From the NCBI RefSeq assembly GCF_964355755.1, contig NC_092678.1, positions 17,458,922 to 17,522,921 on the forward strand: 64,000 nucleotides of DNA, in the 5' to 3' direction. Below are positions 1,750 through 64,000 of the stretch, piece by piece. The position numbers and the translations under genes were made by a program. Each line of letters opens with the position of its first letter. The first letter of the stretch is position 1. The notes below the pieces were generated by a model. The model worked only from the letters and a program-made list of their open reading frames with translations. It searched no databases and was not told the origin of the DNA. Source of the DNA: Antedon mediterranea (taxonomy: Eukaryota > Echinodermata > Crinoidea > Comatulida > Antedonidae).

Positions 1750-3504
1750 TGGGCCAATAGGTCCAACAAAATTTTATTTAACTACAACATCCTTGCTACA
1801 AACAATCTCGTTGTACATGTTAATCATAGAATAATGGTTTACACTTTTATTCGTGGTTCTTCTTCTGTTCTTCGCAATCAAGAACATGTGACGTATTTCA
1901 ATTAAAACATAATGGTGACGACTTACGATCGACATTTTTCCGACGAACTGTCATACTTCGTAGTCTTGAATAGTTAAACGTCATAATGTCTGAAAACACA
2001 TCGGTACCGGCTTTGACAAAATCTTCAAGCTATGTCTACACTTTCAAACTTTGTATGAAGAAAATGTGATGTGCCCATATTGATGTCATATCAGTAGCAT
2101 AATTTGGTCGTCAAACTAGTTTGATAGTGTAGACAGAGCTATATAAATAGCTAATAACAAGTGACGGTGTATCAAGAAAATAAACGTATACAAGCAGAAA
2201 AAAAAATTCCAAAAATGTTAGTAACCTTAAGCATACTATTCTCTCCCCTCCGAAGAAATGTATACTCAATAGTTATTTTGAATATTCTACATGTTGACTT
2301 ACATAATAAACTGTACGCACTTCCTCCTGAACTGATATCTACCAAATACATCTAAACATTTTACTGTGAACTTTCACACATTTGTGCTTATAATCATCTG
2401 GTTCGGTTTTATCAAAGATATGCTGTGAACATTCTAACAAATCTCGCCCTTTCTCCAAGTATTCTTTAATGTTAATTTTACTTTCACACAAAATCGATTA
2501 TAAAAGGCAACCGATGAACATTACTGTTTAGAGAACACTAAAAACTGCGGCGTTTCTCGATCATCTAGTCCGAGGTGTGTAAAGTTAGAATACACTGCTT
2601 CGGGAATACGCTACCTTAATCCACGTTAGGGCAATTGAGCACTGTCTGTAAGACTTTGTTAAGCAGAAAGGTATATCGAATGAAAACTAAAAGAAAAGTT
2701 AGGAGCTGTGACTAACCATCGATTTCAGCCAAACAAAAACATGGAACATACTCTATCGACTAAATACGGACCAAATCATGACCCATCAAGATCATATGTA
2801 TAACTTGACTGCTGATAAATGACGATCGTAAGCTCTTTACACTCCACCACTGTAAGGAGCTCGAAAGCAGAGATGAATAAATGAAATGAATAACTTTCAC
2901 TACTATATCCTAATTGATAATGAAATAAACATGAACTATATTAAAAACATTAAAATTGTTAACTGAAAGTACATGATGAACAAACACTATTTAGTTTAAG
3001 AACATCTGTAATATAAAGAAATTGAAACTACTTAATTTGTATTTTGTACATTACTTTATTGCATTGTCAATACCAACGTAATGAAATATCAGAATAGAGG
3101 CCTACAGCACCGAATATTTATGATAACGTGATCAAATGATTATTTGAATAGACACCACACCTATGAAATTGAATACAAACATTCTGTAGTAAAAATTAAG
3201 CTGGTTTCTTGTGGTAGCGTCAGCAAGCATTATTGACGTGAGTAGTGTACTTCATATTATTGTTATGATGTATTGTAATTTGTCAGGATATATTTTAAGT
3301 AAACAAAGCTAAATCAAATAAACTGGACTTAGTTTTCCCTTAGTAAATTGACACTTTATACTGCCTTAGTAGGTTACAATGAACCTAAGAATCAGGCAAA
3401 CCTTCAAATATCATATCTTATATCAATCATGTCTAATTTCATAATTAATATATGATTGCAGTCTTGACATTTTTTGGAAGCATAAAATTATAAATTACAC
3501 TTAC
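1750..3504. other. non-coding stretch, probably intronic or downstream of the LRR exon array
   Basis: AT-rich DNA without a convincing exon on either strand. The 64-codon frame at 2161-2355 has no recognisable content and no good start context. Confidence 0.5.
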
Positions 3505-21635: not shown

Positions 21636-22282
21636 ATTATTAGTAGTAATATATACCGTACAGTCCAATGAATAATTCATAAATTAATTAATGAATATTA
21701 ATATATTAATTATGAGTGTAGTATTTATGAATAATTAATATTTTAAAGGGTATTATTTATTAATAAATTAATAAATTAATTAATTATGAGGGGTAGTTTT
21801 TATGAATAATTAATATTTTAAAAGTAGTTTTTATGAATATTAATATTTTTAAGGGTATTATTTATGAATAAATGAATTAATTAATTTGTTTAGCGATCTC
21901 AGTCCAATGTATAAGTAATAAGTAATGAGATGTTTTTATATTCATGAATATTAATATATTTTTATTAATATGAGGGGTGTTTTAATGAATTATTAGTAAA
22001 TGAGTGATAGTTTTACGTATAATGTTTAAACGTAATACATGTATTACATAATGTTTAAATAAATATTTACATTTAAATATTAAAGACAATGTGCTTACCT
22101 TCATTGAGAAGTCTGATGTACAGTTTAATGAATAAAATCCACAAGTTTAATCAGCTTTGATTACTGTTTTTTATGCTTGTATAAGGAATCATAACATCAA
22201 TTCGCTGTCTTTCCATGGAATTAGTTTACATGTGAGGCGTGGACAGATCGTTTTTTGTAATTCTGTGATTTTAGCGGGTATG

Positions 22283-22320
22283 TGACGTCATCCGGCAATG
22301 AACCAATAAGATTCCTTATA
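22283..22320 (+). promoter_or_regulatory. promoter-like module 1 (CRE, CCAAT, TTATA), left arm
   Basis: TGACGTCA (22283-22290), CCAAT (22303-22307) and TTATAAGC (from 22316) occur in order. The same module recurs at 22685-22725, and both recur inverted in the right arm. Confidence 0.5.
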
Positions 22321-22684
22321 AGCATAATGCTAATGAAATTAGAATTCGTTGTCCTTGTTGAGATATTCAAAGATATTAAAAGTTATTTAATTATTTTACT
22401 AGTTTTTTATCCTTTTGTTTTTTTTCATTTAGTTACATAACCGCATTATTTTTTAAGGGTATTCCTTCAATATATAAAGATGGTAAAAAATAAATAAATA
22501 AATAAAAATTAAAAATAATGTGCTTACCTTCATTGAGAAGTCTGATATTATAGTATATTTTAATGAATAACATCTACAAGTTTAATCAGCTTTAATTACT
22601 GCTTTTTTTATGTTTGTATAAGAACAAAATCATAACATCAATCCGCTGTCTATTTTTTCAAATCCTGTGATTTTAGCGGGTATG

Positions 22685-22771
22685 TGACGTCATCAGGCAA
22701 TGAACCAATAAGATTCCTTATAAACATAGCGCTAATGAATTAATCTACCAATCATAATTCGTTGTTTTTGT
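22685..22771 (+). promoter_or_regulatory. promoter and first-exon donor for the left-arm gene
   Basis: The cAMP-response-type palindrome TGACGTCA (22685-22692), a CCAAT box (22705-22709) and TATAAA (22719-22724) lie at normal pol II spacing, so a start near 22750 is expected. A donor-like GTAAGC begins at 22770. A pyrimidine-rich acceptor ending CTATCAG lies at 23061-23067, directly before G-ATG. A short non-coding first exon with a ~298-nt intron is inferred. Confidence 0.55.
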
Positions 22772-23068
22772 AAGCGTAGCGATCTCAGTCCAATGAATAA
22801 GTAATGAGATGTTTTAATATTCGTGATATTAATATATTTTTATTATTAATATGAGAGTGTTTTAATGAATACTTAGTAATTGCGTTGGTATTTATTCTAA
22901 GAATTATTGAATTAAGTATGATATATTTAAATTATTTTATTTTTAACACGGTACCTGATTTACTATATATATATACACATTGTTAATTTGAAAACAGTAC
23001 AGTTTTCCTGCTTTAGATTTTTAACATTTAGTCATCTGTTCTTTATCCTGCTGTTATTATCTATCAGG

Positions 23069-23761
23069 ATGAATTCTACTCAAAATCAATCCGGTAGTAA
23101 GAGAGTTTTTTCTTCTTCAAAAGGACAGAGTGCTGTATCTAATCGAGTAAAGATACACAAAGTTTCACATCAACATGGCACAGCAGTACCTTCAAATTGT
23201 ATGACGTGTTTAATGGCGATTCAACCCCCACCTCCAATGAACGTTGATTTCAATAATGTATCTAATACTGAAGAAGACGAACATTATAGATCGAGAATAA
23301 TTTCTGAAGAGGAGAGGATTTTATACGACGACACGTCATCGGTAGTTGACTACCACCTATTTCTAGCAAGAAAAGCCGATGTAGAAGATGAGGTAGAAGA
23401 TGAGGTGTTTGCAGAAGAGTACCTGAACCCTGTGCTGGAGGCGGAGATTAAGAAAGAAACTACCGAACTTGAGTACAAAGAAATAATGAGAACAATTGAG
23501 AAGGTTTTCATAGAAGAATTTATATTCATTCTGAAGGACATGGTTGAACGTTATAACTTTCACGGCTCAAGATATGAACAACTCCTAACATTTTTTCGAC
23601 CAATTCTGGCATTGAAACTTGTGGACAATAGCGCTACCCATTTTGAATGGGCGCTAAACTACTTTCATTTACGTTGCATCAATGTTGATGCGTTCGATAA
23701 AGCCATAAAGTTGATTACAAATGATTCAGAACTTTTTAATAAGATTCTTTACCAATTGTAA
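23069..23761 (+). CDS. unrecognised 230-residue protein of the palindromic element, left-arm copy
   Basis: The ATG at 23069 follows a strong splice acceptor by one base, so I prefer it to the longer frame that begins without ATG at 22988. The N-terminal 60 residues are basic and Ser/Gln rich, with a CMTC pair (residues 44-47) and a run of four Pro. The middle is strongly acidic (DVEDEVEDEVFAEEY, 104-118). The C-terminal half is predicted helical (about 122-230) and hydrophobic at intervals, ending NKILYQL. No signal peptide or membrane span lies in this frame. AATAAA is at 23893-23898. The right-arm copy encodes the same protein, so it has either been under selection or duplicated very recently. 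I do not recognise the family. A regulatory or accessory role for the element is a guess. Confidence 0.7.
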   Translation: MNSTQNQSGSKRVFSSSKGQSAVSNRVKIHKVSHQHGTAVPSNCMTCLMAIQPPPPMNVDFNNVSNTEEDEHYRSRIISEEERILYDDTSSVVDYHLFLARKADVEDEVEDEVFAEEYLNPVLEAEIKKETTELEYKEIMRTIEKVFIEEFIFILKDMVERYNFHGSRYEQLLTFFRPILALKLVDNSATHFEWALNYFHLRCINVDAFDKAIKLITNDSELFNKILYQL

Positions 23762-23769
23762 TTTGTACA

Positions 23770-24800
23770 AATTTAAAATAATATCTTAACACTTTTTTAA
23801 TTAATGTTACATAATTTTATAATTCTTATTTCTTTTCGGTAAATTTATTATTATTATGGTTATAAATTATATTGAAATAGAATGTGTGTTAAAATAAAGG
23901 TTGTGTTTTTTTCTTTTAAAAGCAACAAGAACGAAAATGAAATTTGATCTTTGCGTGTTATTTAAGTATTTGATTTATTTTTTTTAAATTTTCATTTGGG
24001 TGAATGAGGGTAATGAATATGAATGAGTACTTAAGAAAAGTATATTAATATCCTAAGCATCCTGATAGTTTTGGTGGTATGGACCGACTTTATCAAAATG
24101 TAAAAGACGATTTAAATATTACCAAGAGACAAGTTCAAGACTGACTGAACAAGCAATACATTACACACATCCATTCAACGTAAATTCAAACAAAACTGGG
24201 TACTTGTAAGTGCTATTGATGAACAATGGGGAATGGATTTGGAAAAATAACGTGTATAAAATTTGATTCAGACAAACTGTTTGCAAAATCAAAGGTTTGA
24301 CTCTAGATTTCTAAAAATCAAAGGAAGTCAATTTTGAAATAGTTGGTAGCATGGTACGAGGAATCGGACTGGAAAAAATAACAACAACTAATCCTAACAA
24401 AATAAACCGTAAACCAAAATCTCACTTAATATTTATTTTTTATAAATTTGTAAAAGTAGTTACCCTATTTTAATTCATGGTAAATTTATTTTTCGAATTA
24501 ATTTAATTTGTTTTATTTTCTGTTGAATTTTTATTATTATTATGTTTGTAAAGTGTATTGCAATAGATTTGTTTAATAAAATAAATTATGTTTTGACTTA
24601 ATTTATGTCAGTGTAAATTTGTAAAAGTAGTTTTCCTATTATAATTCATGATAAGTTTATTTCTTGACTTTGCTTAATTTTTTCTTTTCTGTTAAAGTAG
24701 AATGTGTATTGAAATACATTTTGTTTTTAACATCAACAACAAAAATGAAATTTGATCTTTGCGTGTTGTTTAACTCGTGTATGAAGTTTTTGAATTTGTT
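23770..24800. repeat. three diverged copies of a gene 3'-flank (about 200 nt), left arm
   Basis: The pattern TTTATTATTATTATG...GAAATAGAATGTGT...GAAATTTGATCTTTGCGTGTT, seen after the 230-residue ORF (23820-23960), recurs near 24480-24600 in part and 24610-24780 nearly whole. The same series is mirrored at 25440-26470. Confidence 0.6.
24025..24250 (+). pseudogene. Polinton-type integrase N-terminal fragment, left arm
   Basis: In one frame: YPKHPDSFGGMDRLYQ, then ITKRQVQD and LNKQYITHIHST. After a frameshift: NWVLVSAIDEQWGMDLE. This order (PKHPxSxGGxD, a helix-turn region, then xxIDxQWxxDL) is that of the N-terminal part of the retroviral-like integrase of Polinton/Maverick elements. At least three stops or frameshifts are present and the catalytic DDE core is missing. 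It therefore cannot work, but it identifies the parent family. Confidence 0.7.
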
Positions 24801-25004
24801 AAATGTAATTGCAAACATACATATTAAATGATTGTGATTAAAAATATTCTGTTTACTTTTTATTTTTTATTTTAAACAGTAGTATTTTTAACAGTAGTTA
24901 TATTTTATATATAGGTAATATTACAAAAATAAACATACAAAATGTATAAAGCATAGACTTATTAAATTTAAATACAATTTCTTTATTTCAAAATGAATTT
25001 CATT

Positions 25005-25236
25005 CAATTTCATCTCTCTAATTAATTTTAGATGTGTTATCATTTATCTAAAATGTATATTTCTCAATAATAAGCATTTACTTTATAAATTTGGTAAAAA
25101 TACATTTATAATATTCCTTCTTATTGAAAGTGTCGTTACAAACCGTGCGTCTCAAATTTGTTTCCTTTTGTGTGCGTTTTTATATCAGTACGTATTGTGT
25201 CTTTCTTAAAAGATTTAAAATTGAAAACACGTATAA
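25005..25236. other. unique spacer of the palindrome
   Basis: This is the only non-inverted part of the element. It is AT-rich with no ORF. Arm sequence TTTCAAAATGAATTTCAT stops at about 25004 and resumes inverted at about 25237. Confidence 0.8.
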
Positions 25237-25990
25237 AATGAAATTCATTTTGAAATAAAGAAATTGTATTTAAATTTAATAAGTCTATGCTTTATACATT
25301 TTGTATGTTTATTTTTGTAATATTACCTATATATAAAATATAACTACTGTTAAAAATACTACTGTTTAAAATAAAAAATAAAAAGTAAACAGAATATTTT
25401 TAATCACAATCATTTAATATGTATGTTTGCAATTACATTTAACAAATTCAAAAACTTCATACACGAGTTAAACAACACGCAAAGATCAAATTTCATTTTT
25501 GTTGTTGATGTTAAAAACAAAATGTATTTCAATACACATTCTACTTTAACAGAAAAGAAAAAATTAAGCAAAGTCAAGAAATAAACTTATCATGAATTAT
25601 AATAGGAAAACTACTTTTACAAATTTACACTGACATAAATTAAGTCAAAACATAATTTATTTTATTAAACAAATCTATTGCAATACACTTTACAAACATA
25701 ATAATAATAAAAATTCAACAGAAAATAAAACAAATTAAATTAATTCGAAAAATAAATTTACCATGAATTAAAATAGGGTAACTACTTTTACAAATTTATA
25801 AAAAATAAATATTAAGTGAGATTTTGGTTTACGGTTTATTTTGTTAGGATTAGTTGTTGTTATTTTTTCCAGTCCGATTCCTCGTACCATGCTACCAACT
25901 ATTTCAAAATTGACTTCCTTTGATTTTTAGAAATCTAGAGTCAAACCTTTGATTTTGCAAACAGTTTGTCTGAATCAAATTTTATACACG

Positions 25991-26216
25991 TTATTTTTCC
26001 AAATCCATTCCCCATTGTTCATCAATAGCACTTACAAGTACCCAGTTTTGTTTGAATTTACGTTGAATGGATGTGTGTAATGTATTGCTTGTTCAGTCAG
26101 TCTTGAACTTGTCTCTTGGTAATATTTAAATCGTCTTTTACATTTTGATAAAGTCGGTCCACACCACCAAAACTATCAGGATGCTTAGGATCTTAATATA
26201 CTTTTCTTAAGTACTC
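25991..26216 (-). pseudogene. Polinton-type integrase N-terminal fragment, right arm
   Basis: Mirror copy of 24025-24250 with the same stops and frameshift, so decay preceded the arm duplication. One visible difference is GGTGTG for GGTATG near 26160. Confidence 0.7.
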
Positions 26217-26479
26217 ATTCATATTCATTACCCTCATTCACCCAAATGAAAATTAAAAAAAAATAAATCAAATACTTAAATAACACGCAAAGATCAAATT
26301 TCATTTTCGTTCTTGTTGCTTTTAAAAGAAAAAAACACAACCTTTATTTTAACACACATTCTATTTCAATATAATTTATAACCATAATAATAATAAATTT
26401 ACCGAAAAGAAATAAGAATTATAAAATTATGTAACATTAATTAAAAAAGTGTTAAGATATTATTTTAAATTTGTACAAA

Positions 26480-27172
26480 TTACAATTGGTAAAGAATCTT
26501 ATTAAAAAGTTCTGAATCATTTGTAATCAACTTTATGGCTTTATCGAACGCATCAACATTGATGCAACGTAAATGAAAGTAGTTTAGCGCCCATTCAAAA
26601 TGGGTAGCGCTATTGTCCACAAGTTTCAATGCCAGAATTGGTCGAAAAAATGTTAGGAGTTGTTCATATCTTGAGCCGTGAAAGTTATAACGTTCAACCA
26701 TGTCCTTCAGAATGAATATAAATTCTTCTATGAAAACCTTCTCAATTGTTCTCATTATTTCTTTGTACTCAAGTTCGGTAGTTTCTTTCTTAATCTCCGC
26801 CTCCAGCACAGGGTTCAGGTACTCTTCTGCAAACACCTCATCTTCTACCTCATCTTCTACATCGGCTTTTCTTGCTAGAAATAGGTGGTAGTCAACTACC
26901 GATGACGTGTCGTCGTATAAAATCCTCTCCTCTTCAGAAATTATTCTCGATCTATAATGTTCGTCTTCTTCAGTATTAGATACATTATTGAAATCAACGT
27001 TCATTGGAGGTGGGGGTTGAATCGCCATTAAACACGTCATACAATTTGAAGGTACTGCTGTGCCATGTTGATGTGAAACTTTGTGTATCTTTACTCGATT
27101 AGATACAGCACTCTGTCCTTTTGAAGAAGAAAAAACTCTCTTACTACCGGATTGATTTTGAGTAGAATTCAT
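26480..27172 (-). CDS. unrecognised 230-residue protein of the palindromic element, right-arm copy
   Basis: The predicted protein is identical, residue for residue, to the left-arm copy at 23069-23761, and both genes point toward the centre of the palindrome. The start ATG is at 27172-27170 behind the same acceptor. The promoter TATAAA is at 27523-27518 and TGACGTCA at 27557-27550. The integrase fragments nearby are dead in both arms while this ORF is open in both, so the gene is the only protein the element can make. Function unknown. Confidence 0.7.
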   Translation of the reverse strand: MNSTQNQSGSKRVFSSSKGQSAVSNRVKIHKVSHQHGTAVPSNCMTCLMAIQPPPPMNVDFNNVSNTEEDEHYRSRIISEEERILYDDTSSVVDYHLFLARKADVEDEVEDEVFAEEYLNPVLEAEIKKETTELEYKEIMRTIEKVFIEEFIFILKDMVERYNFHGSRYEQLLTFFRPILALKLVDNSATHFEWALNYFHLRCINVDAFDKAIKLITNDSELFNKILYQL

Positions 27173-27517
27173 CCTGATAGATAATAACAGCAGGATAAAG
27201 AACAGATGACTAAATGTTAAAAATCTAAAGCAGGAAAACTGTACTGTTTTCAAATTAACAATGTGTATATATATATAGTAAATCAGGTACCGTGTTAAAA
27301 ATAAAATAATTTAAATATATCATACTTAATTCAATAATTCTTAGAATAAATACCAACGCAATTACTAAGTATTCATTAAAACACTCTCATATTAATAATA
27401 AAAATATATTAATATTCACGAATATTAAAACATCTCATTACTTATTCATTGGACTGAGATCGCTACGCTTACAAAAACAACGAATTATGATTGGTAGATT
27501 AATTCATTAGCGCTATG

Positions 27518-27557
27518 TTTATAAGGAATCTTATTGGTTCATTGCCTGATGACGTCA
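27518..27557 (-). promoter_or_regulatory. promoter module of the right-arm gene
   Basis: Mirror image of 22685-22724, with CRE, CCAAT and TATAAA in the same order. Confidence 0.5.
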
Positions 27558-28606
27558 CATACCCGCTAAAATCACAGGATTTGAAAAAATAGACAGCGGA
27601 TTGATGTTATGATTTTGTTCTTATACAAACATAAAAAAAGCAGTAATTAAAGCTGATTAAACTTGTAGATGTTATTCATTAAAATATACTATAATATCAG
27701 ACTTCTCAATGAAGGTAAGCACATTATTTTTAATTTTTATTTATTTATTTATTTTTTACCATCTTTATATATTGAAGGAATACCCTTAAAAAATAATGCG
27801 GTTATGTAACTAAACGAAAAAAAACAAAAGGATAAAAAACTAGTAAAATAATTAAATAACTTTTAATATCTTTGAATATCTCAACAAGGACAACGAATTC
27901 TAATTTCATTAGCATTATGCTTATAAGGAATCTTATTGGTTCATTGCCGGATGACGTCACATACCCGCTAAAATCACAGAATTACAAAAAACGATCTGTC
28001 CACGCCTCACATGTAAACTAATTCCATGGAAAGACAGCGAATTGATGTTATGATTCCTTATACAAGCATAAAAAACAGTAATCAAAGCTGATTAAACTTG
28101 TGGATTTTATTCATTAAACTGTACATCAGACTTCTCAATGAAGGTAAGCACATTGTCTTTAATATTTAAATGTAAATATTTATTTAAACATTATGTAATA
28201 CATGTATTACGTTTAAACATTATACGTAAAACTATCACTCATTTACTAATTATTCATTAAAACACCCCTCATATTAATAAAAATATATTAATATTCATGA
28301 ATATTAAAACATCTCATTACTTATTACTTATACATTGGACTGAGATCGCTAAACAAATTAATTAATTCATTTATTCATAAATAATACCCTTAAAAATATT
28401 AATATTCATAAAAACTACTTTTAAAATATTAATTATTCATAAAAACTACCCCTCATAATTAATTAATTTATTAATTTATTAATAAATAATACCCTTTAAA
28501 ATATTAATTATTCATAAATACTACACTCATAATTAATATATTAATATTCATTAATTAATTTATGAATTATTCATTGGACTGTACGGTATATATTACTACT
28601 ATTATT

Positions 28607-53319: not shown

Positions 53320-54985
53320 GAGAGGGACTTCGAAATGAATTAGCATGCTGTAATTGTTGTCAATTGCCACTACTGTACAACAATACGTATTTTTTTACAT
53401 TTTAAATATTTGCAGACAAGAAGAAGATACAATGAAAGTGTCAATCCTATCTTTATTGTGTGTTGTGCCTGTGTTTGTATATACTTAACTAACCGTCACA
53501 CTTCAGTGATTCTATTGTGATGGGTATCAACACAAGCACAGCACAACCATATGGTTTATGCAAATTAGACCTAAATATTATGTATACTTGTGCAGTGTTC
53601 TTTTGTAATATGTACTTGTTGAGTAGATACAATTACAGCTTAGCCTGAAGTGGACTGAGGTTTAGAGGCTTAAAGAAGCCTAGAGTTAGAGTGAGGGCTG
53701 GATTAAAGGGTTTATTTAGAAGCATGAAGATGCTGAATGACCTACAGTAGTAGTATAAGTCTTATGTAGCCCACAGCTCAGCTAGAAAAAGCACGTGTTT
53801 GTATTATACTCACTTTATAGGCATATCATTATATCGTTGTAATTATGGTATAACCAATGGTTAAGTATTTCTCAAAATAAAGTTTGTTATTTATTTGTAG
53901 TAAATCGGATCGATGTATGGATTTACGGATAGAAACAGAAATATGGAATTAAAGTCTGCAGTATTGAATATTGTTTTGTGCAGAATTACATGAAGTACGG
54001 TAGCATTTGGAAAAAACAATCATTGTACAATAAATATATGATGCTTGATTGTTGTGATAACGAAGTGTTGTAAGGTCATTAATGCAAAATCGAAAATGCA
54101 ATAACAAAAACATTTAGAAATCAATAAACTGTAAAAATGATTGATATAAACACGATTAAATTATTAGTCTTCGTCTGGAAATTTCAGAGGAAACCTTGTT
54201 TTTAAGTTTTACGAGTTGTACACAAAGCGTTATCGACAAACAGTTTATTTCCGCAACACTTACTTTGGAATTAACGGAATATGCTTTATCGCATTCTCAG
54301 TTCAGAAATCAGGAGCCATCGTCTGCAGAAGAAAAAAAACCGTAAAAACAATTATTAAAAATGGAAAGAAAATGAGTTGTTGTTTCCGATAATCATAATG
54401 CGTTTCTTTTCAAACGGGGTAGTGGGATATTCCTGAGGAAATGATCGGCCTCGTTTGGGATTGTTACAATTGCCTACATGTTCACATGCAAACTAGGTAG
54501 GCCTTAGTGCCAAGCCGGTTTACACTGAGCATTTACACGTCACGCGAAAAGATTCGCCAGAAGGTAGACAAAGTTCTATCGATTTTGCGAGTTGCAAATT
54601 CACCACTTTAAATTAAAATCCACTGGCGTTCAACACAGGCATGGGAACGGTGAGACGGAGGGCAATTGACCTCCCAAAACTTAAATCATGGGATGGCAAA
54701 TAAAAATAGCATTTTAAAGAGATTTCTTTTCAACAACATATTCTTATAACTCCTTTCGCTCAGCAATACAAACATGATAATATAATAATAACAGCCAGAC
54801 CGAAACAATGCGCTTGTCGCGAGAAAGAGATTTCTGTAAAATGCTTCTGAATTTGTAAAACTTAATGGAATTGGTATGAATGTTTTTTTACCGGTCACAT
54901 TATTGTAACTGCTTAAATATAAAAACTGAAAAAAAACAAACAATGTTTGTCTATAATATACAGAGAATATATAGAGAGAGTAGTA
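53320..54985. other. non-coding stretch
   Basis: No exon supported. The 114-codon minus-strand frame at 54686-55030 is Phe/Tyr/Leu-rich, without a domain. Confidence 0.5.
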
Positions 54986-54989
54986 GATG

Positions 54990-55195
54990 TAGGACTTCAG
55001 GCCGTAATGTACCCCCAGGGCATATTTCATATTTCTATTGTTTAATTTCTAGGTATTGTAATGATAATTAGTGAAAGGTCATTCTTTGTACCAGACCGGA
55101 AAGGAATGTCATATCCCCAGGGTATATATTATATTTTCTATTGTTTAATTTCCTGTTATTGTAATATTAATTAGCGAAAGGTCATTCTTTGTTAG
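54990..55195. repeat. two tandem units of about 100 bp
   Basis: CCCCCAGGGCATAT...CTATTGTTTAATTTC...GAAAGGTCATTCTTTG occurs twice head to tail. Confidence 0.75.
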
Positions 55196-55527
55196 AGAAG
55201 GGGGTTTGTTATTTTGGCGGGGTTTTCGTTTTGGCCTGGGGTTATAATTGTAGTTGGTGATGAATTTGTATTTTAAATATATTAGTGAAGGTAGTTCTTT
55301 GTTTGAGGATTGCTATTGTTATTTTTAGGCGGTTTTACCATTGCATAGGTTGCCTTTGTTTAGTATATCCTAATTTCTTTTGTTCATTGTTCTTTTTGTT
55401 TGGTACAATAGTTTTGTTTTTGATATTTTAGAGCCGTTTCTTTTTAGACATTGTAAGAAGAGGGACTGTTTTTTGTGACCTTTCCAGTTGTTTCGTCTAT
55501 TTTTACGTGGAGTTACAGTATTTCGCT

Positions 55528-56079
55528 ATGTCTGGAAGTATAGATTTTTCGTTAGGTAGCTGTGTAGATACAGTTATAATTATTAGCGATGATGAGGAGA
55601 CTGTTGTTACAGGTAACGATATCGGTGATCGGTACATGCGGACCAATGAGGGTGTACCCGCCGGTGTTGATGAAGGAGTTGAGAGGGGTAGCCGGGCTGC
55701 AAGTTGTATATTTACGTACGTAGATGAGGTGGAGAGAGAATTTTTATTGAAATTGGAATATTTAGCCAGAGAAGTGTTTGTTTCTCAAGTGTTAAACATG
55801 TGTTGGATGTTAAGTAAAGCGGCTTGTTATGGTTGCGAATTTGATAGGCCTGGTCAAAAAGATCATGACTTCTGCTGTATAAAATCTCCAGAAGAACAGA
55901 TTGATTATTTTTATCGGGAGGTTCTGGATAAAGAGTATGTTACAGACGATACCGTGTATAGTGAGTTGAATAAGTACGAGGAATATTCATTACCACGGTA
56001 TAGACATTTTGTTTACTTTCTCGTAAATACCTTGACTAATTCAGAGAACCTGTATAAGTTATTGTGTGAGGATATCTAA
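55528..56079 (+). CDS. unrecognised 183-residue Cys/His protein with a SUMO-interacting-like motif
   Basis: The ATG at 55528 lies downstream of a good acceptor (GACCTTTCCAG, to about 55489), so at least one 5' non-coding exon is likely. Residues 16-24 (VIIISDDEE) match a SUMO-interacting motif: four hydrophobics followed by acids. Residues 100-117 hold CYGCEFDRPGQKDHDFCC, a plausible zinc-binding C-x2-C...H-x2-CC cluster. A basic/aromatic C-terminal region (EYSLPRYRHFVYFLVNTL) follows. I recall related CxC...P(S/G)Q..H..C hypothetical proteins from invertebrates and mobile elements, but cannot name the family. It is intact, on the same strand as the ALKBH2-like gene 200 bp downstream, and lacks a clear polyadenylation signal before it. 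Confidence 0.65.
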   Translation: MSGSIDFSLGSCVDTVIIISDDEETVVTGNDIGDRYMRTNEGVPAGVDEGVERGSRAASCIFTYVDEVEREFLLKLEYLAREVFVSQVLNMCWMLSKAACYGCEFDRPGQKDHDFCCIKSPEEQIDYFYREVLDKEYVTDDTVYSELNKYEEYSLPRYRHFVYFLVNTLTNSENLYKLLCEDI

Positions 56080-56285
56080 AACGTGTTTCGTACGTGCCAC
56101 GGAAAAACGATTGACCGGAAAACAAACAATTAACAATGCTTTAATCCGCACGCGTTGTAGGGAGACAATTGACAGGAAAAACAATTAATATCGCTTTAGG
56201 CTAATTACTGTTAAAAAGCTACTTCCGTACTGAGATGTTACATATATATCGGACCTGGTTCAATCGCAGTTTTAAAGTACCAACG

Positions 56286-57160
56286 ATGACTACCTCCTCG
56301 AAGTTATTGGATCCTAGAAAATTTTTCAACGGTCAAACAAACGATTTGAGTAAAGCAGCGAAGCCGTCAACAAGTAAAAAATCATTTCACTCTGCCTCAG
56401 GAATTAGCGCCATGGATTATGCAGAAATGACCGGTGGTGAACCAAAGATTCCAATAACTTCAACGAATCGGATTTTTCTGTCTGAAAAACGCCATGTAGT
56501 GGCCCAGCGCTGGGGTGAAGTTGTTTATGTATGCCTTAGAGAATTTTATCAAAGGGAAGAAAATGGTGCCTTCAAACCTGGACCTCTAGGTATTAATTTC
56601 TGCTGTGGCAAAAACTTTTTACCAATATTGATTTAATTCTTCAAGCCCTAGCCGACTTGCAAAGAGACATTAACTTGGTGGAGGCAGTAAGAATCCCACT
56701 TTCGGACATACTACATGTGGTAGTTAGTAGCTGGAAAGAAGAGCAGTTTGTATGTATTCGCCATTGTTACCAGGCCGAAGAAGGAGGCGAGTTTAAACCC
56801 GGCAAAAAAGGTATAAACCTTCCAAAGAGACAGTGGTACAAGTTAATTGAACAACACGGTGAAATTCAAAAGATGATTGAAGAGGTTGATAATGATAATG
56901 CGGTTACCGTCGATGGTGGTGGTGACGAAAACGATAACGGAGGACGTTTATTCAATTCAGAGCAACAATTGCTATCCCCTGATGGGTTATCTGTGCAAAA
57001 GATAACAGGGGAAAATTTAGATTGTGATTACCTTCAACTTCTTGATAAAGGAACAGCCGATACATTGTTTAAAAAATGTGAGGAAGAGATTGACTATTTT
57101 ACCGGTGATCTTGCAAAGGTGAAAGTGTACGGAAAGTGGTTTAATATTCCTAGAAAACAG
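56286..57160 (+). CDS. ALKBH2: ALKBH2-like gene, coding exon 1: two PC4-like domains and start of the dioxygenase
   Basis: I chose the ATG at 56286 (MTTSSKLLDP); an in-frame ATG lies at 56235. Domain 1 (residues ~62-125) reads FLSEKRHVVAQRWGEVVYVC, EFYQREENGAFKPGPLGINF and, in another frame, LFTNIDLILQALADLQRD. Domain 2 (~135-205) reads EEQFVCIRHCYQ, GGEFKPGKKGINL and QWYKLIEQ. Both match the PC4 (Sub1/p15) fold, a single-stranded DNA binder. An acidic linker follows, then the first AlkB block (EIDYFTGDLAKVKVYGKWFN, IPRKQ). The exon ends with a GTTAGT donor at 57161. There is one apparent 1-nt deletion near 56600-56606; the three exons sum to 1316 nt and one extra base would give 438 codons plus stop. 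Human ALKBH2 lacks the PC4 domains. Confidence 0.85.
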
Positions 57161-57379
57161 GTTAGTTCCATTATTATTTTATCCGTGGTTTTGTATTAAT
57201 GACTTGTTAATTACTTGTAGGCCTATATCGTTTCCTTTGTTTTTCTTTATTTACCGCTGGGTAGCTATATGTTTAATTTACTCTTTTACTGTAAATGATT
57301 TTATTTGGGCGTGTTCATTTACATCTTGCCAAATAAGATTCTTAAATTACTATGTAATGTATGGTTTTCCCCTCTGTAG

Positions 57380-57522
57380 GTTTCGTTTGGCGATTCGGGC
57401 TTAACTTACAAATATTCAGGCATTACAGTACCAGCTTTACCGTGGCCACCATTCCTGAAAGATCTCCGCGATCTTTTAAAAATGGTTACTGGACATTACT
57501 TCAATTTTGTCTTGGTCAATCG
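57380..57522 (+). CDS. ALKBH2: ALKBH2-like gene, coding exon 2
   Basis: The acceptor is TTTTCCCCTCTGTAG, ending at 57379. The exon encodes VSFGDSGLTYKYSGITVPAL, PWPPFLKDLRDLLKMVTG and HYFNFVLVN, and ends in CG before GTAAAT (57523). It aligns block by block with vertebrate ALKBH2 (YGDAGLTYxFSG, TGQxFNFVLIN). It contains the nucleotide-recognition-lid and substrate-pocket strands. The intron before it is phase 0 and the one after it phase 2. Confidence 0.9.
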
Positions 57523-57683
57523 GTAAATATTCTTGTTTATTATTTTGTTTGTTTTAATTCTATTATGCAAGTGTTATTTTACTTACATACATCCTCCCTC
57601 CCCCAATGGATAATTGGGTGGGTTTTTTTTAATCTCATGTTAAAATACTTTATTTTCTATTGTATTTTGTCGTTACTCTATAG

Positions 57684-57981
57684 ATATGCTACTGGCAGTG
57701 ATTACATTGGCGAACACAAAGATGATGAAAAAGACATGAATCACTTTAGTCCAATCGCCTCTGTATCATTGGGGCAAACACGTATGTTTAGATTTCGACA
57801 TGGTGATGCGCGAGGTAAGAGTTCCAAAAGAATAATTGAACCAGTAACTGTTGATCTTAAACACGGTACATTATTAATGATGAATTATCCCACTAATGAG
57901 TACTGGTACCATTCACTGCCTAAAAATCAATCCATCAAGCTACCAAGAATAAATCTTACGTTTAGAGATATTAAAAGATGA
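57684..57981 (+). CDS. ALKBH2: ALKBH2-like gene, coding exon 3: catalytic core and C-terminus
   Basis: The acceptor is CTCTATAG, ending at 57683. The first base completes the Arg codon of NR-YATGSDYIGEHKDDE. It carries the iron-binding HxD (EHKDD), SPIASVSLGQTRMFRFRH, HGTLLMMNYPTNEYWYHSLP (distal iron His) and PRINLTFR (2-oxoglutarate-binding Arg residues), then stops at TGA 57979-57981. All catalytic residues of Fe(II)/2-oxoglutarate DNA dealkylases are present. By family it reverses 1-methyladenine and 3-methylcytosine lesions in nuclear DNA by oxidative demethylation. Confidence 0.93.
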
Positions 57982-58104
57982 GAGAAATTTTACGCAAACA
58001 TTAGGCCTAACAGTCTTTAATAGTGATTGCAGATCTCAAGAACATCAACTGTTCATGATCTGTTCTCATATAGTGTAGTAGTACCAGTTAAATTACTTTT
58101 GTGA

Positions 58105-58335
58105 TGATATTTCTACAAATGGTTGTATTATTGTATTGAAGTTAATTCACTTAGATATAGGGCTAATTCCATTGATCGTTAATAATAATATGATTGTTTG
58201 TCATTGTGTGGATAATTATTAACTTTACGAAACAAATAGCTGTATTATTGTATTGAAATTCACTTAGATCTATACCTAATTCCATTGATCGTTAATATTC
58301 ATGTGATTGTTTCCCATTGTGTGGATAAAAATTAA
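58105..58335. repeat. two tandem units of about 115 bp downstream of the ALKBH2-like gene
   Basis: GTATTATTGTATTGAA...CTAATTCCATTGATCGTTAA...TCCCATTGTGTGGATAA-type unit, twice in a row. Confidence 0.75.
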
Positions 58336-58339
58336 ATAA

Positions 58340-59657
58340 TCTCTTAAAAGTAAATTGTATTGTATTTCTAATTGTTATAAATACATGTAACAGTTTCTTA
58401 TGTTTTTAACAAGTGTGCAAGTTTTTCTTTAAAGCGTTTTAACCGTTTAGTTAGTAATTTCAAGAGAAACAGGTACTTGAAACGGATAAATGATGTCGTA
58501 ACGTAGGAAACGGACTGGTAGATTAAAAGAAACGTTATAGGCCTAATAACACTAATAATAACAAACATATATTTCGTACATGTATCGATAAGTTATCTAA
58601 ATATGTGTGATTAATATTATTACAATAAAGACCATGTAGATCTACAGTAGTTTTACTGTAAGTGGTATTGTAAATAAATTTTGAATTCAATGGTGAAAAA
58701 TAACAGATGTCTGCGTATTATTTAATATTACTTTTATCATAATTGCAAACACAGGTCGATCATAATTTGAAGGCAGAAAGACGTTTTGGTTGCCAATTGT
58801 ATTTTTTTTACACTTAACACATTTTAACAGAAAAACAGAAAAGCTAGACATTCAACCGGACCCCAAACATTGAAATTTGTTTACAAACAGGTTATTTCCA
58901 TTAGTTATTCTAAGGCCTACTTTTTTTTCTACATGTTTATCTTTCGACTATTTTTTAAAAACTTTTTTTATGAATCTTCCGCTGTTTCGTTAGCAATTTT
59001 ACAGGCCTGTGTCTTCGCTCTGTAGCCTTTTAACGGTTCTTTGTAAATGTTCTCTTATTGATGGTTACCTATAGCTCTCTCACATCCCTTAATCTAGCAC
59101 CATTTTATGAAAGATTCCTCAGTAAGGGGTTTATTACTGACGCTAGGTATCATCGACAGGGAATATTAGACAAAACATGATGTCACTATTTTTAAAAGGT
59201 TTTCTCATTCAAGAACAGCTGACGTCAATGAAGAATACGTTACAACACGATAACTATCGGACAGCAGCAACAAACATCAACCAATCACAAATCTGAGCTA
59301 CTAGTTAAATAATAAATAAACGAAACAAAGACATCATTTTCGTCTCGAAGTTATATTAACGTAAATTTTTCCTTCACAAAATCACAGGAGACGCGTTTAA
59401 CGTTTCCAATTGTAAAGCAGTTTCAAATTACGTCGCATCATACTGCTAGTACCTTACTGTAAAATATCTACCGATATATATATTTTGCTAGTCACTCATC
59501 ATTTTATTACATCACATTATTCAACTCATCAGGTGTAATATCTTTACACAAATCCTTTATATCTTTACTTTTTTTTCTTACCAGCTCATAACAAACACGA
59601 ATATTACTCTAAAGGATTTATACTCAATGTACCATAAACCCCCCCCCCCCCCTTTTT
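58340..59657. other. non-coding stretch
   Basis: No exon supported. It ends in a C12T8 homopolymer block at 59641-59660, where assembly errors are likely. Confidence 0.5.
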
Positions 59658-61284
59658 TTTTAAAGTCTGCATAGCGGCACGAGAAAACAATTAATAATGG
59701 GGATAAAAAGTTTGTCTTACATTGTTATACAGTAACCTGTGTTTTTCTCGGTTTACACCAACTCATTGTTTATAATTATGTATGTTAATGTCAATATAGT
59801 GTTTCTCTAGTACAGTGTATTACCTGTTTATACCCGTAAAGTTTGCAGGCCTCCATGTAGTTGGTATATTTTGTAAAAATTGTATTTATGTTTACTTTTT
59901 AAAAATCGTTTTATTTGCATTTTATCTCCTCCTGGTTAAAATGAGTGTGATGTTGCTTAAAAAGTTAACAAGTATAACCACTAAAACGGTTCATTACCTG
60001 TAGGAAATCATCAATATTGTAACATGCGGTAAACAATACAAATTAGTTTCACAAATCATTTAAACAATAACACTAACAAATTATTGGAATTTAAGAAAAT
60101 AAAGGTGTACAGATTTTATTTCGATAAAAAAAGTGTACAAAAATAACTTTACAAAAAATTTACAGAATAAATTAACAAAAAAAAAATAATTAATTCTTAT
60201 AAAGGTGTACAGTGTACATTGGCCAGACATTCTTAAAACGAGGTGTACAGCTTTTATTTAAAAAAAAGTATACAGAAATAATTTTACAAAAAGTGTATAG
60301 AATAAATTTACAAAAAAAAGTTCACACATTAAACTCATGCTTATAAAAGTGTACATGTCGATGTGTACATGTGACGTGGCATTACCATTAAGAAACAAAT
60401 ACAAACCAAACACTTAACAACTAAAACAGCATAGCGATCGTTTTCGTACGAAAAACAATACCTCCAGCAGGTATATCAACTTTAGTATTTTAAGTATAGG
60501 GCCTACACGTTACAAACACACACACCCTCTTGAATTGTAGGTACAGGCCTTTTGCCGTTCGTAATTCAAACTGTTCGGAAAATTGAAGTTAATATTCTGA
60601 GATTTATGTCTATGATTGCATTCTGCCTTCCCTCTCAGGAGCTTAGACTTGTCAACGGTCTAAAAGAGCTGTAATGCAGGATGCGAAACATAAAAGTTTA
60701 TTAATAAACCGTATATTATAACGATAAAGAAACGAATGTACGATACACCAATATAACAGTACAATAACTGATTAACTGAAGACTTGAAGTCTACTGTATT
60801 CCTACAATCATTCAAGTAGACATTGTTTGCTGAGTGTATGATACTTTCTCCAAAGAGAATTCGAACGATGTGTTTTTTTTTTCCGGACGTGTTTCTACGG
60901 TTATCAGAACGGGTCAATAATAATTTAAACAAAAAAAAAAAAAAAAAAACAAAAAAAAAAAAAACAAAAAAAAAAAAAAAAAAAAAACGAACAGCCTACT
61001 AACTTCCAAACAATCAATACCTAAATAAGCTGAACCTAACCCACTAATTAATAATCTCTTCCATACATCAAAATCGGCCGAAAATGATCTGAACATTGAA
61101 AAGTGGACACGGTCGTCTGTTCTTCTTATCTGTTGCCACGGCTTGTGACATCCTCGTTGGTGATAAAGCCATGCGGTCTACACATTTATGATGACCACAT
61201 CGCATAAAATGTTCAGGGAACTTATTTTTCAACTCTCTGATACAATGTTTAAATACAAGTGGACTGGAAACCATTTAGGAATAG

Positions 61285-61925
61285 GGTTTTCTAATAATAA
61301 AAGTTGTGTAAAACTTTAGTTATGGCCAAGGGGAATTGGTCAAGACTTGGAGTAAATGGTCAAAACCGGTGGCAAATGGTCAAGACCGAGAGAAAAATTA
61401 ATGTACACCATTTTATAAGTTTATCGTCAATTATTGTGTTAACATTCATTTATGAATAAACCTGTATACGTATTCAATAATAAAAAAAAAGAATAACTTT
61501 CTTATGCTTAATATCATGAATAACATATCTTTAGTGGTTAAGGTAATATATTATTTCTCTGTATACTGACGTCACACATATAGATAAAGAGAGACTGTCT
61601 ATTAATAAAAGTTGTGTAAAACTTTAGTTATGGTCAAGGGGATTGGTCAAGACTTGAAGTAAATTGTCGAGACTTGGAGTAAATGGTCGAGACCGGGGGA
61701 AAGTGGTCAAGACAGGGAGAAAAATTAATGTACACAATTTTATAAGTTTATAGTCACTTATTGTGTTAAATTTCATTTATGATTAAACCTGTATACGTAT
61801 TCAATAATAAAAAATTAATATTCCTTCACTTAATATCATGAATAACATATCTTTAGTGGTTAAGGTATTATATTATTTCTCTGTATACTGACCTCACAAA
61901 TATAGATAAAGAGAGACTGTAACTA
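61285..61925. repeat. two direct repeats of about 315 bp in the loop of the right inverted repeat
   Basis: AATAAAAGTTGTGTAAAACT...GGTCAAGAC...TATAGATAAAGAGAGACTGT occurs twice (about 61293-61596 and 61602-61920). A GGTCAAGAC(C/T)-type short motif is iterated inside each. Confidence 0.8.
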
Positions 61926-62100
61926 AATGTTTATTAATTATTAGGGTTACAGTGAGAGTTCTATGCAAACATTAAAAGGCCAATTAACGAGCCACCCAAC
62001 TTAATTAAGTACCGGTACCTAACTAACAAATGCGCTCAAACTCTATACAGGTTACAACTCTACAAAAGAGGACATTTTATTTTTAAACTAGGGTTAAACA

Positions 62101-62407
62101 TGAAAAAGGTCAATTACTTGAACTCTGAACATTGGAAAAAGGGGTTGTGTCAATGGACACTTGAACTTTACCTCTATACAAGGACGAATGGACAGTGACA
62201 ATTTACCATTAAACTCTGGTCAACCGTTTTATTGGGGGGCTCTCAAATTTCGACGAAGTCGAAAATTGAAACTCTCATGTTTTTGTGACCAGAGTTTAAT
62301 GGTAAATTGTCACTGTCCATTCGTCCTTGTATAGAGGTAAAGTTCTAGTGTCCATTGACACAACCCCTTTTTCCAATGTTCAGAGTTCAAGTAATTGACC
62401 TTTTTCA
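62101..62407. repeat. nested inverted repeat: 122-bp arms around a 63-nt loop
   Basis: 62101-62222 is mirrored by 62286-62407 (TGAAAAAGGTCAATTACTTG and its complement at the ends). The loop contains TTTCGACGAAGTCGAAA. The outer edge of the right copy abuts the start of the right large arm. Confidence 0.9.
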
Positions 62408-64000
62408 TTGTATCAGAGAGTTGAAAAATAAGTTCCCTGAACATTTTATGCGATGTGGTCATCATAAATGTGTAGACCGCATGGCTTTATCACCAACGAG
62501 GATGTCACAAGCCGTGGCAACAGATAAGAAGAACAGACGACCGTGTCCACTTTTCAATGTTCAGATCATTTTCGGCCGATTTTGATGTATGGAAGAGATT
62601 ATTAATTAGTGGGTTAGGTTCAGCTTATTTAGGTATTGATTGTTTGGAAGTTAGTAGGCTGTTCGTTTTTTTTTTTTTGTTTTTTTTGTTTTTTTTTTTT
62701 TTTTTTTTTTTTTTTTTGGTTTTTTTTTTTAAAATTATTATTGACCCGTTCTGATAACCGTAGAAACACGTCCGGAAAAAAAAAAACACATCGTTCGAAT
62801 TCTCTTTGGAGAAAGTATCATACACTCAGCAAACAATGTCTACTTGAATGATTGTAGGAGTACAGTAGACTTCAAGTCTTCAGTTAATCAGTTATTGTAC
62901 TGTTATATTGGTGTATCGTACATTCGTTTCTTTATCGTTATAATATACGGTTTATTAATAAACTTTTATGTTTCGCATCCTGCATTACAGCTCTTTTAGA
63001 CCGTTGACAAGTCTAAGCTCCTGAGAGGGAAGGCAGAATGCAATCATAGACATAAATCTCAGAATATTAACTTCAATTTTCCGAACAGTTTGAATTACGA
63101 ACGGCAAAAGGCCTGTACCTACAATTCAAGAGGGTGTGTGTGTTTGTAACGTGTAGGCCCTATACTTAAAATACTAAAGTTGATATACCTGCTGGAGGTA
63201 TTGTTTTTCGTACGAAAACGATCGCTATGCTGTTTTAGTTGTTAAGTGTTTGGTTTGTATTTGTTTCTTAATGGTAATGCCACGTCACATGTACACATCG
63301 ACATGTACACTTTTATAAGCATGAGTTTAATGTGTGAACTTTTTTTTGTAAATTTATTCTATACACTTTTTGTAAAATTATTTCTGTATACTTTTTTTTA
63401 AATAAAAGCTGTACACCTCGTTTTAAGAATGTCTGGCCAATGTACACTGTACACCTTTATAAGAATTAATTATTTTTTTTTTGTTAATTTATTCTGTAAA
63501 TTTTTTGTAAAGTTATTTTTGTACACTTTTTTTATCGAAATAAAATCTGTACACCTTTATTTTCTTAAATTCCAATAATTTGTTAGTGTTATTGTTTAAA
63601 TGATTTGTGAAACTAATTTGTATTGTTTACCGCATGTTACAATATTGATGATTTCCTACAGGTAATGAACCGTTTTAGTGGTTATACTTGTTAACTTTTT
63701 AAGCAACATCACACTCATTTTAACCAGGAGGAGATAAAATGCAAATAAACGATTTTTAAAAAGTAAACATAAATACAATTTTTACAAAATATACCAACTA
63801 CATGGAGGCCTGCAAACTTTACGGGTATAAACAGGTAATAAACTGTACTAGAGAAACACTATATCGACATTAACATACATAATTATAAACAATGAGTTGG
63901 TGTAAACCGAGAAAAACACAGGTTACTGTATAACAATGTAAGACAAACTTTTTATCCCCATTATTAATTGTTTTCTCGTGCCGCTATGCAGACTTTAAAA

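Follow-up and report, generated by a model that had tools for sequence, protein, structure and literature searches.

The window analysed here, 64,000 nucleotides of the crinoid Antedon mediterranea (assembly GCF_964355755.1, contig NC_092678.1, positions 17,458,922 to 17,522,921), contains an almost perfect palindrome of 6959 bp, which carries one gene per arm and is enclosed by a 6-bp target-site duplication. It is one member of a family dispersed in the genome (354 Mb in 18 contigs were searched), whose members are probably non-autonomous palindromic derivatives of Polinton/Maverick elements that would have been born by terminal fold-back, copied in self-complementary form and mobilised by intact relatives. 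We base this proposal on the palindrome and its duplication, on related palindromes elsewhere, on a hairpin centre common to three of them, on sequence changes present on both arms, and on a full-length relative with open coding frames.

The arms of the window palindrome (21642-25004 and the reverse complement of 25237-28600) differ by 6 substitutions and one 1-nt indel. AGTAGT forms the first six bases at each end, ATTATT lies directly outside both, and both ends carry the same parental end sequence. Of the 30-mers of the element, 6252 are found again in its own reverse complement, compared to 0 in each of five letter shuffles. Two open reading frames (ORFs) longer than 66 codons were found, i.e. 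one per arm (257 codons from TTG, 230 codons from the first ATG). Downstream of each ORF, tblastn with the integrase ORF of a full-length Polinton from the same genome as a query revealed a remnant distributed over two frames with stops and aligned to residues 13-92 of the query (E-value 2e-18 for 24010-24241 and 8e-20 for 26231-26000). The initial annotation, made from the letters of the window alone, had described inverted arms of ~3.36 kb, a spacer of ~230 nt and ATTATT flanks, all of which proved exact, with outer coordinates correct to the base; the integrase fragment it had recognised in each arm is borne out by the tblastn result.

The window element has in common with Polintons/Mavericks (polintoviruses; animal adintoviruses) the AGTAGT ends, the inverted terminal repeats and the 6-bp duplication, as well as relatives in this genome that bear PolB and the rve integrase and have the same ends. 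It differs in that it consists almost entirely of an inverted repeat with one gene per arm and, at 7 kb, falls short of the 15-20 kb given for Polintons in a passage of PMC4028283. The ORF scan of the window copy detected no PolB ORF, which is present in the full-length relatives, and therefore we refer to it as a non-autonomous derivative and not as a Polinton proper. Genes for the capsid, protease and packaging ATPase were likewise not found in the 6959-bp element, and of the integrase each arm retains the broken N-terminal remnant instead of an intact rve domain.

Two ordinary Polintons share the window-type terminal sequence: a 14.6-kb element at C3:24.15 Mb and a 17.8-kb element at C1:30.56 Mb. 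Their terminal repeats measure ~400-490 nt, and the two repeats of either element are 92% alike. C3:24.15 contains an open PolB frame of 1567 codons (DNA_pol_B_2, E-value 1.2e-44) and an open integrase frame (rve, 6.5e-13, accompanied by Chromo), together with a weak match to Peptidase_C5. In C1:30.56 the PolB and integrase frames are interrupted, and the matches to Pox_A32 and Peptidase_C5 are weak. The first 60 nt of C3:24.15 are those of the palindrome C6:14.68, while the window terminus is 93% identical to that of a full-length Polinton over 199 nt. Genome-wide, PF03175 yielded 88 matches, and 14 places are located within frames of more than 1300 codons.

AGTAGT ends accompanied by a matching 6-bp duplication were found in 10 of the 11 two-ended elements, at ten different sites; this set leaves aside L030 and the palindromes C7:11.05, C1:34.46, C3:23.76, C8:7.70, C4:18.0 and C5:16.96. 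Nine duplications were scored by script (window, ATTATT; second palindrome of the window, AGAGAG; L009, GTTCAA; L010/11, TGTGTT; L012/13, AAACAT; L014/15, TTTATT; L016/17, ACTCTC; L018/19, GAAACA; L020/21, TACACA), with agreement in 0 of the 72 mismatched flank pairs among these nine elements, and the tenth (TAAAAG, in a palindrome of the PolB end) was identified by eye. Three different terminal sequences occur among the palindromes. Since duplications surround several palindromes at unrelated sites, the palindromes appear to be mobile as whole units. Window-type terminal sequence is also present in L025, L026 and L027 (C5:3.28-3.32 Mb), which are ~235 bp long, have AGTAGT at one end only and are outside the count of 11; because their flanks are near-identical, they represent a single place present in three copies.

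The outer 1001 nt of the window arm have at least 49 matches in the genome and the inner 2105 nt at least 101. Among the inner-arm matches listed, the arm gene is found in at least 13 inverted pairs and at least 14 unpaired places, counting fragments. The two arms of each of the 13 pairs were aligned with each other, along long arms or a shared gene segment. The tightest are C3:23.76 (100% over 1220 nt), C3:21.24 (99.95% over 6154 nt), C8:20.17 (99.93% over 2724 nt), C4:18.0 (99.9%), C8:7.70 and C5:16.96 (99.8% each), C6:14.68 (99.75% over 5979 nt), C3:18.06 (99.74% over 4552 nt) and the window copy (99.7%, BLAST); the looser ones are C10:17.60 (98.7%), C7:11.05 (98.4%), C1:34.46 (97.7%) and C6:14.51 (94.6%). 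One-armed loci were also encountered (L022, L023 and L024): L024 is 99.6% identical to nearly the whole C3:21.24 arm, with the match ending near the centre (half a palindrome or a collapsed assembly), and in L023 (1350-5427) an arm appears to be interrupted by ORFs of 215, 421 and 727 codons, which by eye resemble a non-LTR (long terminal repeat) retrotransposon.

The palindromes C3:21.24 and C6:14.68 have one and the same hairpin centre, and therefore their common ancestor was already palindromic. In the alignment of their four arms (5817 gap-free columns), 82 of the 97 differences between the two elements are present on both arms, and 3 and 12 on one arm only. Between the window copy and C6:14.68 there are 31 differences on both arms (5 and 8 on single arms), and between the window copy and C3:18.06 there are 55 (5 and 10). 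In a tree of 34 segments, 6 of the 12 element pairs come out as direct sisters, the remaining 6 fall within the same small unresolved clade, and none of the 12 is split by a starred fork. The palindrome C8:7.70 is 95% alike in the shared core, and is itself near-perfect (98.9% over 2988 nt) about the same hairpin centre (92% identity to that of C3:21.24 over 137 nt). Its matches to the window start only inside the ORF, and its outer arm is absent among the outer-arm matches listed. In its kin L029 and L030 an alternative outer part is present on both arms, so that the window type and the L029/L030 type have different outer arms (approximately the first 43 codons included), and in each type the two arms agree. 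Such an exchange of outer sequence within palindromes, on both arms at once, is compatible with one arm serving as the template for the other.

The window arm is a mosaic: full-length elements match its outer 0.8 kb with their PolB-side end and the region from ~1136 to 1554 with their integrase-side end, and a core is common to palindromes with other outer sequence. The 230-aa ORF is likewise a fusion: its first ~43 residues resemble the start of a 155-aa ORF of the full-length L014 (84% identity over 44 residues), and its last 186 residues share 97-98% identity with the ORF found in palindromes of the L029/L030 type. These 186 codons are all open in the window frame in 25 of the 34 segments. 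Between two palindrome groups (11 and 16 segments; the C7 pair, the C1:34.46 pair, C5:7.44, C1:5.66 and C6:14.51, 7 in all, were left out), 559 coding columns contain 0 non-synonymous and 2 synonymous fixed differences, compared to 12 fixed differences in 668 downstream columns. When the window copy is compared with the other group, pairwise omega is 0.13-0.32. Comparisons inside the L029-type group, which involve few changes, give 0 to 2.05, and those with C7, the frame of which is shifted, give 0.51 to 0.94. Judging from these sequence comparisons, selection on the arm ORF is likely, although not proven. The 230-aa protein has no match in Pfam and no relative at E<=0.001 in the protein database search, and the single-sequence structure predictions for it and for the 189-aa protein of the second palindrome were uninformative (mean pLDDT (predicted local distance difference test) of 40.7 and 36.4). 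A comparison of these two proteins gave no support for their homology.

We propose that, while a Polinton end was being copied by protein-primed strand displacement, the growing strand could fold back or switch to its complement, which would produce a linear molecule flanked by two copies of one Polinton end. Such a molecule would have a valid origin and integration end on either side, and could therefore be copied and inserted in trans, with PolB (for copying) and the integrase (for insertion with the 6-bp duplication) supplied by intact Polintons. Every round of copying would pass via a self-complementary strand, in which one arm can template both, and therefore the arms would stay alike while separate copies diverge.

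A number of observations weigh against this proposal. In the closest pair, C3:18.06 and C3:21.24, 4 of the 17 differences are on both arms and 10 and 3 on single arms, a pattern that fits one-arm changes piling up after insertion. The two-ended palindrome L029 lacks both AGTAGT and a duplication where its inverted repeat stops (the sole miss among the 11), and the 235-bp palindromic remnants L025-L027 lack a target duplication. A Bcl-2-like gene of the longer palindromes (see below) was not matched by the genome search inside either full-length Polinton with the same termini. The window arm is a mosaic and not a plain copy of one Polinton end; since it matches both the PolB end and the integrase end, its history would involve more than one fold-back. 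The case is built on assembled sequence. Finally, gene conversion between arms is well known from Y-chromosome palindromes, and in the chromosome it would likewise keep the arms alike and produce changes on both of them. It can be argued on this ground that the palindromes were formed in the chromosome by inverted duplication and deletion, with no need for hairpin replication. We consider this explanation, the main rival, unlikely: the arms of C6:14.51, C1:34.46 and C7:11.05 have diverged, which indicates that arms can drift apart once inserted, the palindromes are of several types and possess three different terminal sequences, and the duplications enclose whole palindromes.

The origin of the window copy within the family can be approached from its centre. 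In C6:14.68 and C3:21.24 the arm extends beyond position 3363, where the window arm ends, and 228 nt of the window spacer, read from the right arm, correspond to the next stretch of this longer arm; therefore the window centre is a deletion junction, where the left arm is cut at 3363 and the right arm takes over at ~3591; a few extra bases similar to adjacent sequence lie between them. The window copy thus appears to be a centre-deleted descendant of an older palindrome of ~12 kb that would have lost ~5 kb around its centre. A jump from arm to arm and a fold-back of one arm would yield the same product. One could also suppose that the window copy arose afresh, by direct fold-back of a full-length Polinton, since a single strand switch would leave a loop of 228 nt and the junction holds a short, duplicated-looking insert. 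We find this rather improbable, as the inner arm is ~99% identical to that of C6:14.68, the decayed integrase included, the spacer continues that very arm, and the order of the window arm is found in neither full-length element with these termini. The initial annotation had envisaged a Polinton collapsed into two gene-bearing arms; the Polinton origin, the palindromic build and the genes stand, whereas the direct collapse gives way to deletion from an older palindrome. Its suggestion that the palindrome transposed as one unit agrees with the duplications around several palindromes, but could not be derived from the window copy alone, and the related Polinton termini it had asked for elsewhere in the genome are numerous, those of full-length Polintons among them. 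With these refinements, its interpretation is supported.

The deleted centre included a gene, an ORF that among Pfam families matches Bcl-2 (PF00452) best, with E-values from 7e-5 to 5e-4 and 21-24 bits, below the curated cut-off of 31.4 (3 single copies tested). Its profile matched no PDB sequence, and no relative of the protein was reported by the protein database search at E<=0.001. The ORF has 113 matches in the genome, fragments included, some of them as inverted pairs. According to a passage of a 2024 preprint (PMC11071296), anti-apoptotic homologues and/or candidate oncogenes seem to be encoded by most adintoviruses associated with mammals, and the Bcl-2-like gene of the longer palindromes is in line with this. 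The Bcl-2-like ORF was also noted on the minus strand at L016:4564-5163 and L050:12-536, in the latter case followed by a splice donor (GTAAGT) and an acceptor look-alike, as judged by eye.

Two further explanations have very little in their favour. Amplified or chimeric reads are known to create perfect long inverted repeats as an artefact, and a fold-back in the assembly would produce one, but the repeat ends exactly at AGTAGT, its flanks differ and a duplication is present, as in 10 of the 11 elements, the arms contain private differences, and sister palindromes at other loci have a common centre; an artefact is thus extremely improbable. It is just as hard to believe that a Foldback- or MITE-type (miniature inverted-repeat transposable element) element of another superfamily acquired Polinton pieces. 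Foldback (FB) and Galileo use other transposases, whereas the ends and the duplication here are of the Polinton type, the terminus matches that of a full-length Polinton and the integrase remnant is Polinton-like. The Pfam scan of the arm ORF revealed no Foldback/Galileo transposase, and no wider transposase search was made. The resemblance lies in the very long inverted repeats with internal sub-repeats, which are seen in the window palindrome and described for Galileo in a passage of PMC3573991.

The window contains a second palindrome (Table 1), the right end of which lies outside it (54979-68678 in total; L049:1-4678 beyond the window). It has AGTAGT ends and arms that are 99.1-99.7% alike, and differs from the first type in its terminal sequence and genes. 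Its Bcl-2-like stretch is 68% identical to that of the first type over 313 nt and has the same outward direction, and therefore the two types may share a distant ancestry. The ~190-aa gene occurs in 10 inverted pairs spaced by 10.5-13.0 kb (arms were aligned for the window pair only), and its 189-aa protein has no relative in IMG/VR. An additional Polinton type, L050, of which the first 9.9 kb were covered, encodes a 206-aa ORF 98% identical to the ~189-190-aa ORF; a capsid-like ORF used as a query in IMG/VR gave no relative. A third type has PolB on both arms (L054/L055, C3:21.742-21.757 Mb, from C3:21742824 to ~21757458; 98.8% over 6759 nt). The PolB frame spans 1347 codons in one arm of this type and is broken in the other, and by eye the element opens with bases similar to those of the second type. 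Palindromes of either Polinton end therefore exist. Two more inverted PolB pairs (C9:16692182+/16697611- and C3:21947807+/21953751-) are possible PolB-end palindromes. Other inverted repeats in the window are 45593-46419/47788-48602 (87% over 828 nt) and 41064-41243/41482-41661 (99% over 180 nt).

Table 1. Coordinates of the two palindromes and their features, in positions of the window
Feature	Positions	Strand	Basis
First palindrome, left target-site duplication ATTATT	21636..21641	.	sequence read
Left arm, 3363 nt, opening AGTAGTAATATATACCG	21642..25004	+	arm-to-arm alignment
230-aa ORF, left arm	23069..23761	+	ORF list and protein alignment
Decayed Polinton integrase, N-terminal part, two frames with stops	24010..24241	+	tblastn
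Central spacer, 232 nt, deletion junction	25005..25236	.	alignment to longer palindromes
Right arm, 3364 nt, inverted copy of left arm	25237..28600	-	arm-to-arm alignment
Decayed integrase remnant, right arm	26000..26231	-	tblastn
230-aa ORF, right arm	26480..27172	-	ORF list
Right target-site duplication ATTATT	28601..28606	.	sequence read
Second palindrome, left duplication AGAGAG (partner after L049:4678)	54973..54978	.	
Left arm, 6.27 kb, opening AGTAGTAGATGTAGG	54979..61247	+	
190-aa ORF (189-190 aa), 98% identical to L050 ORF	55507..56079	+	
PC4-like ORF (PF02229, 1.1e-5)	56235..56636	+	
PC4-like ORF (PF02229, 1.4e-13)	56657..57199	+	
AlkB-type 2OG-Fe(II) oxygenase ORF (PF13532, 1.3e-19)	57361..57981	+	
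Decayed relative of Bcl-2-like gene	59312..59617	-	
Centre of second palindrome	61248..62405	.	
Right arm, continuing past the window to 68678	62406..64000	-	

Among the papers listed from the open PubMed Central literature, none dealt with palindromic Polintons to judge from titles and abstract openings. Hairpin derivatives are known for the yeast plasmid pGKL1. The closest precedent we found is a deletion derivative of the Neurospora kalilo plasmid, which according to the title of Vierula & Bertrand 1992, as cited in PMC11071308, forms hairpin and duplex DNA. To the extent that a title can tell, these derivatives resemble the palindromes described here in being self-complementary deletion forms of linear elements with a PolB of the protein-primed type. 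They differ in that kalilo and pGKL1 are extrachromosomal plasmids, whereas the palindromes are integrated, surrounded by target duplications, dispersed and diversified. Adenoviruses, which are also protein-primed, give rise to palindromic defective genomes by inverted duplication of one genome end; these arise anew in infected cells, whereas the palindromes of A. mediterranea are inherited and amplified in the genome. Incomplete adenovirus particles are associated with the left end, as mentioned in a passage of PMC12090768.

We speculate, with somewhat less than even confidence, that palindromic Polintons could constitute a standing class of satellites, which replicate as hairpins and form lineages of their own, the two arms evolving in concert. 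They would swap outer sequence on both arms at once, bear small genes of regulatory or anti-apoptotic function, borrow the polymerase, the integrase and perhaps capsids from intact Polintons, and emerge recurrently from either end. To our knowledge, the polymerase is the main source from which the replication mode of Polintons has been deduced. Palindromes of either end with co-evolving arms are the expected leftovers of terminal fold-back on a strand-displacement replicator, and therefore they may provide a genomic record of Polinton replication and a system in which it can be tested. If this is true, they would represent a gene-bearing satellite of animal Polintons, and would explain the continued appearance of large, near-perfect palindromes in an animal genome.

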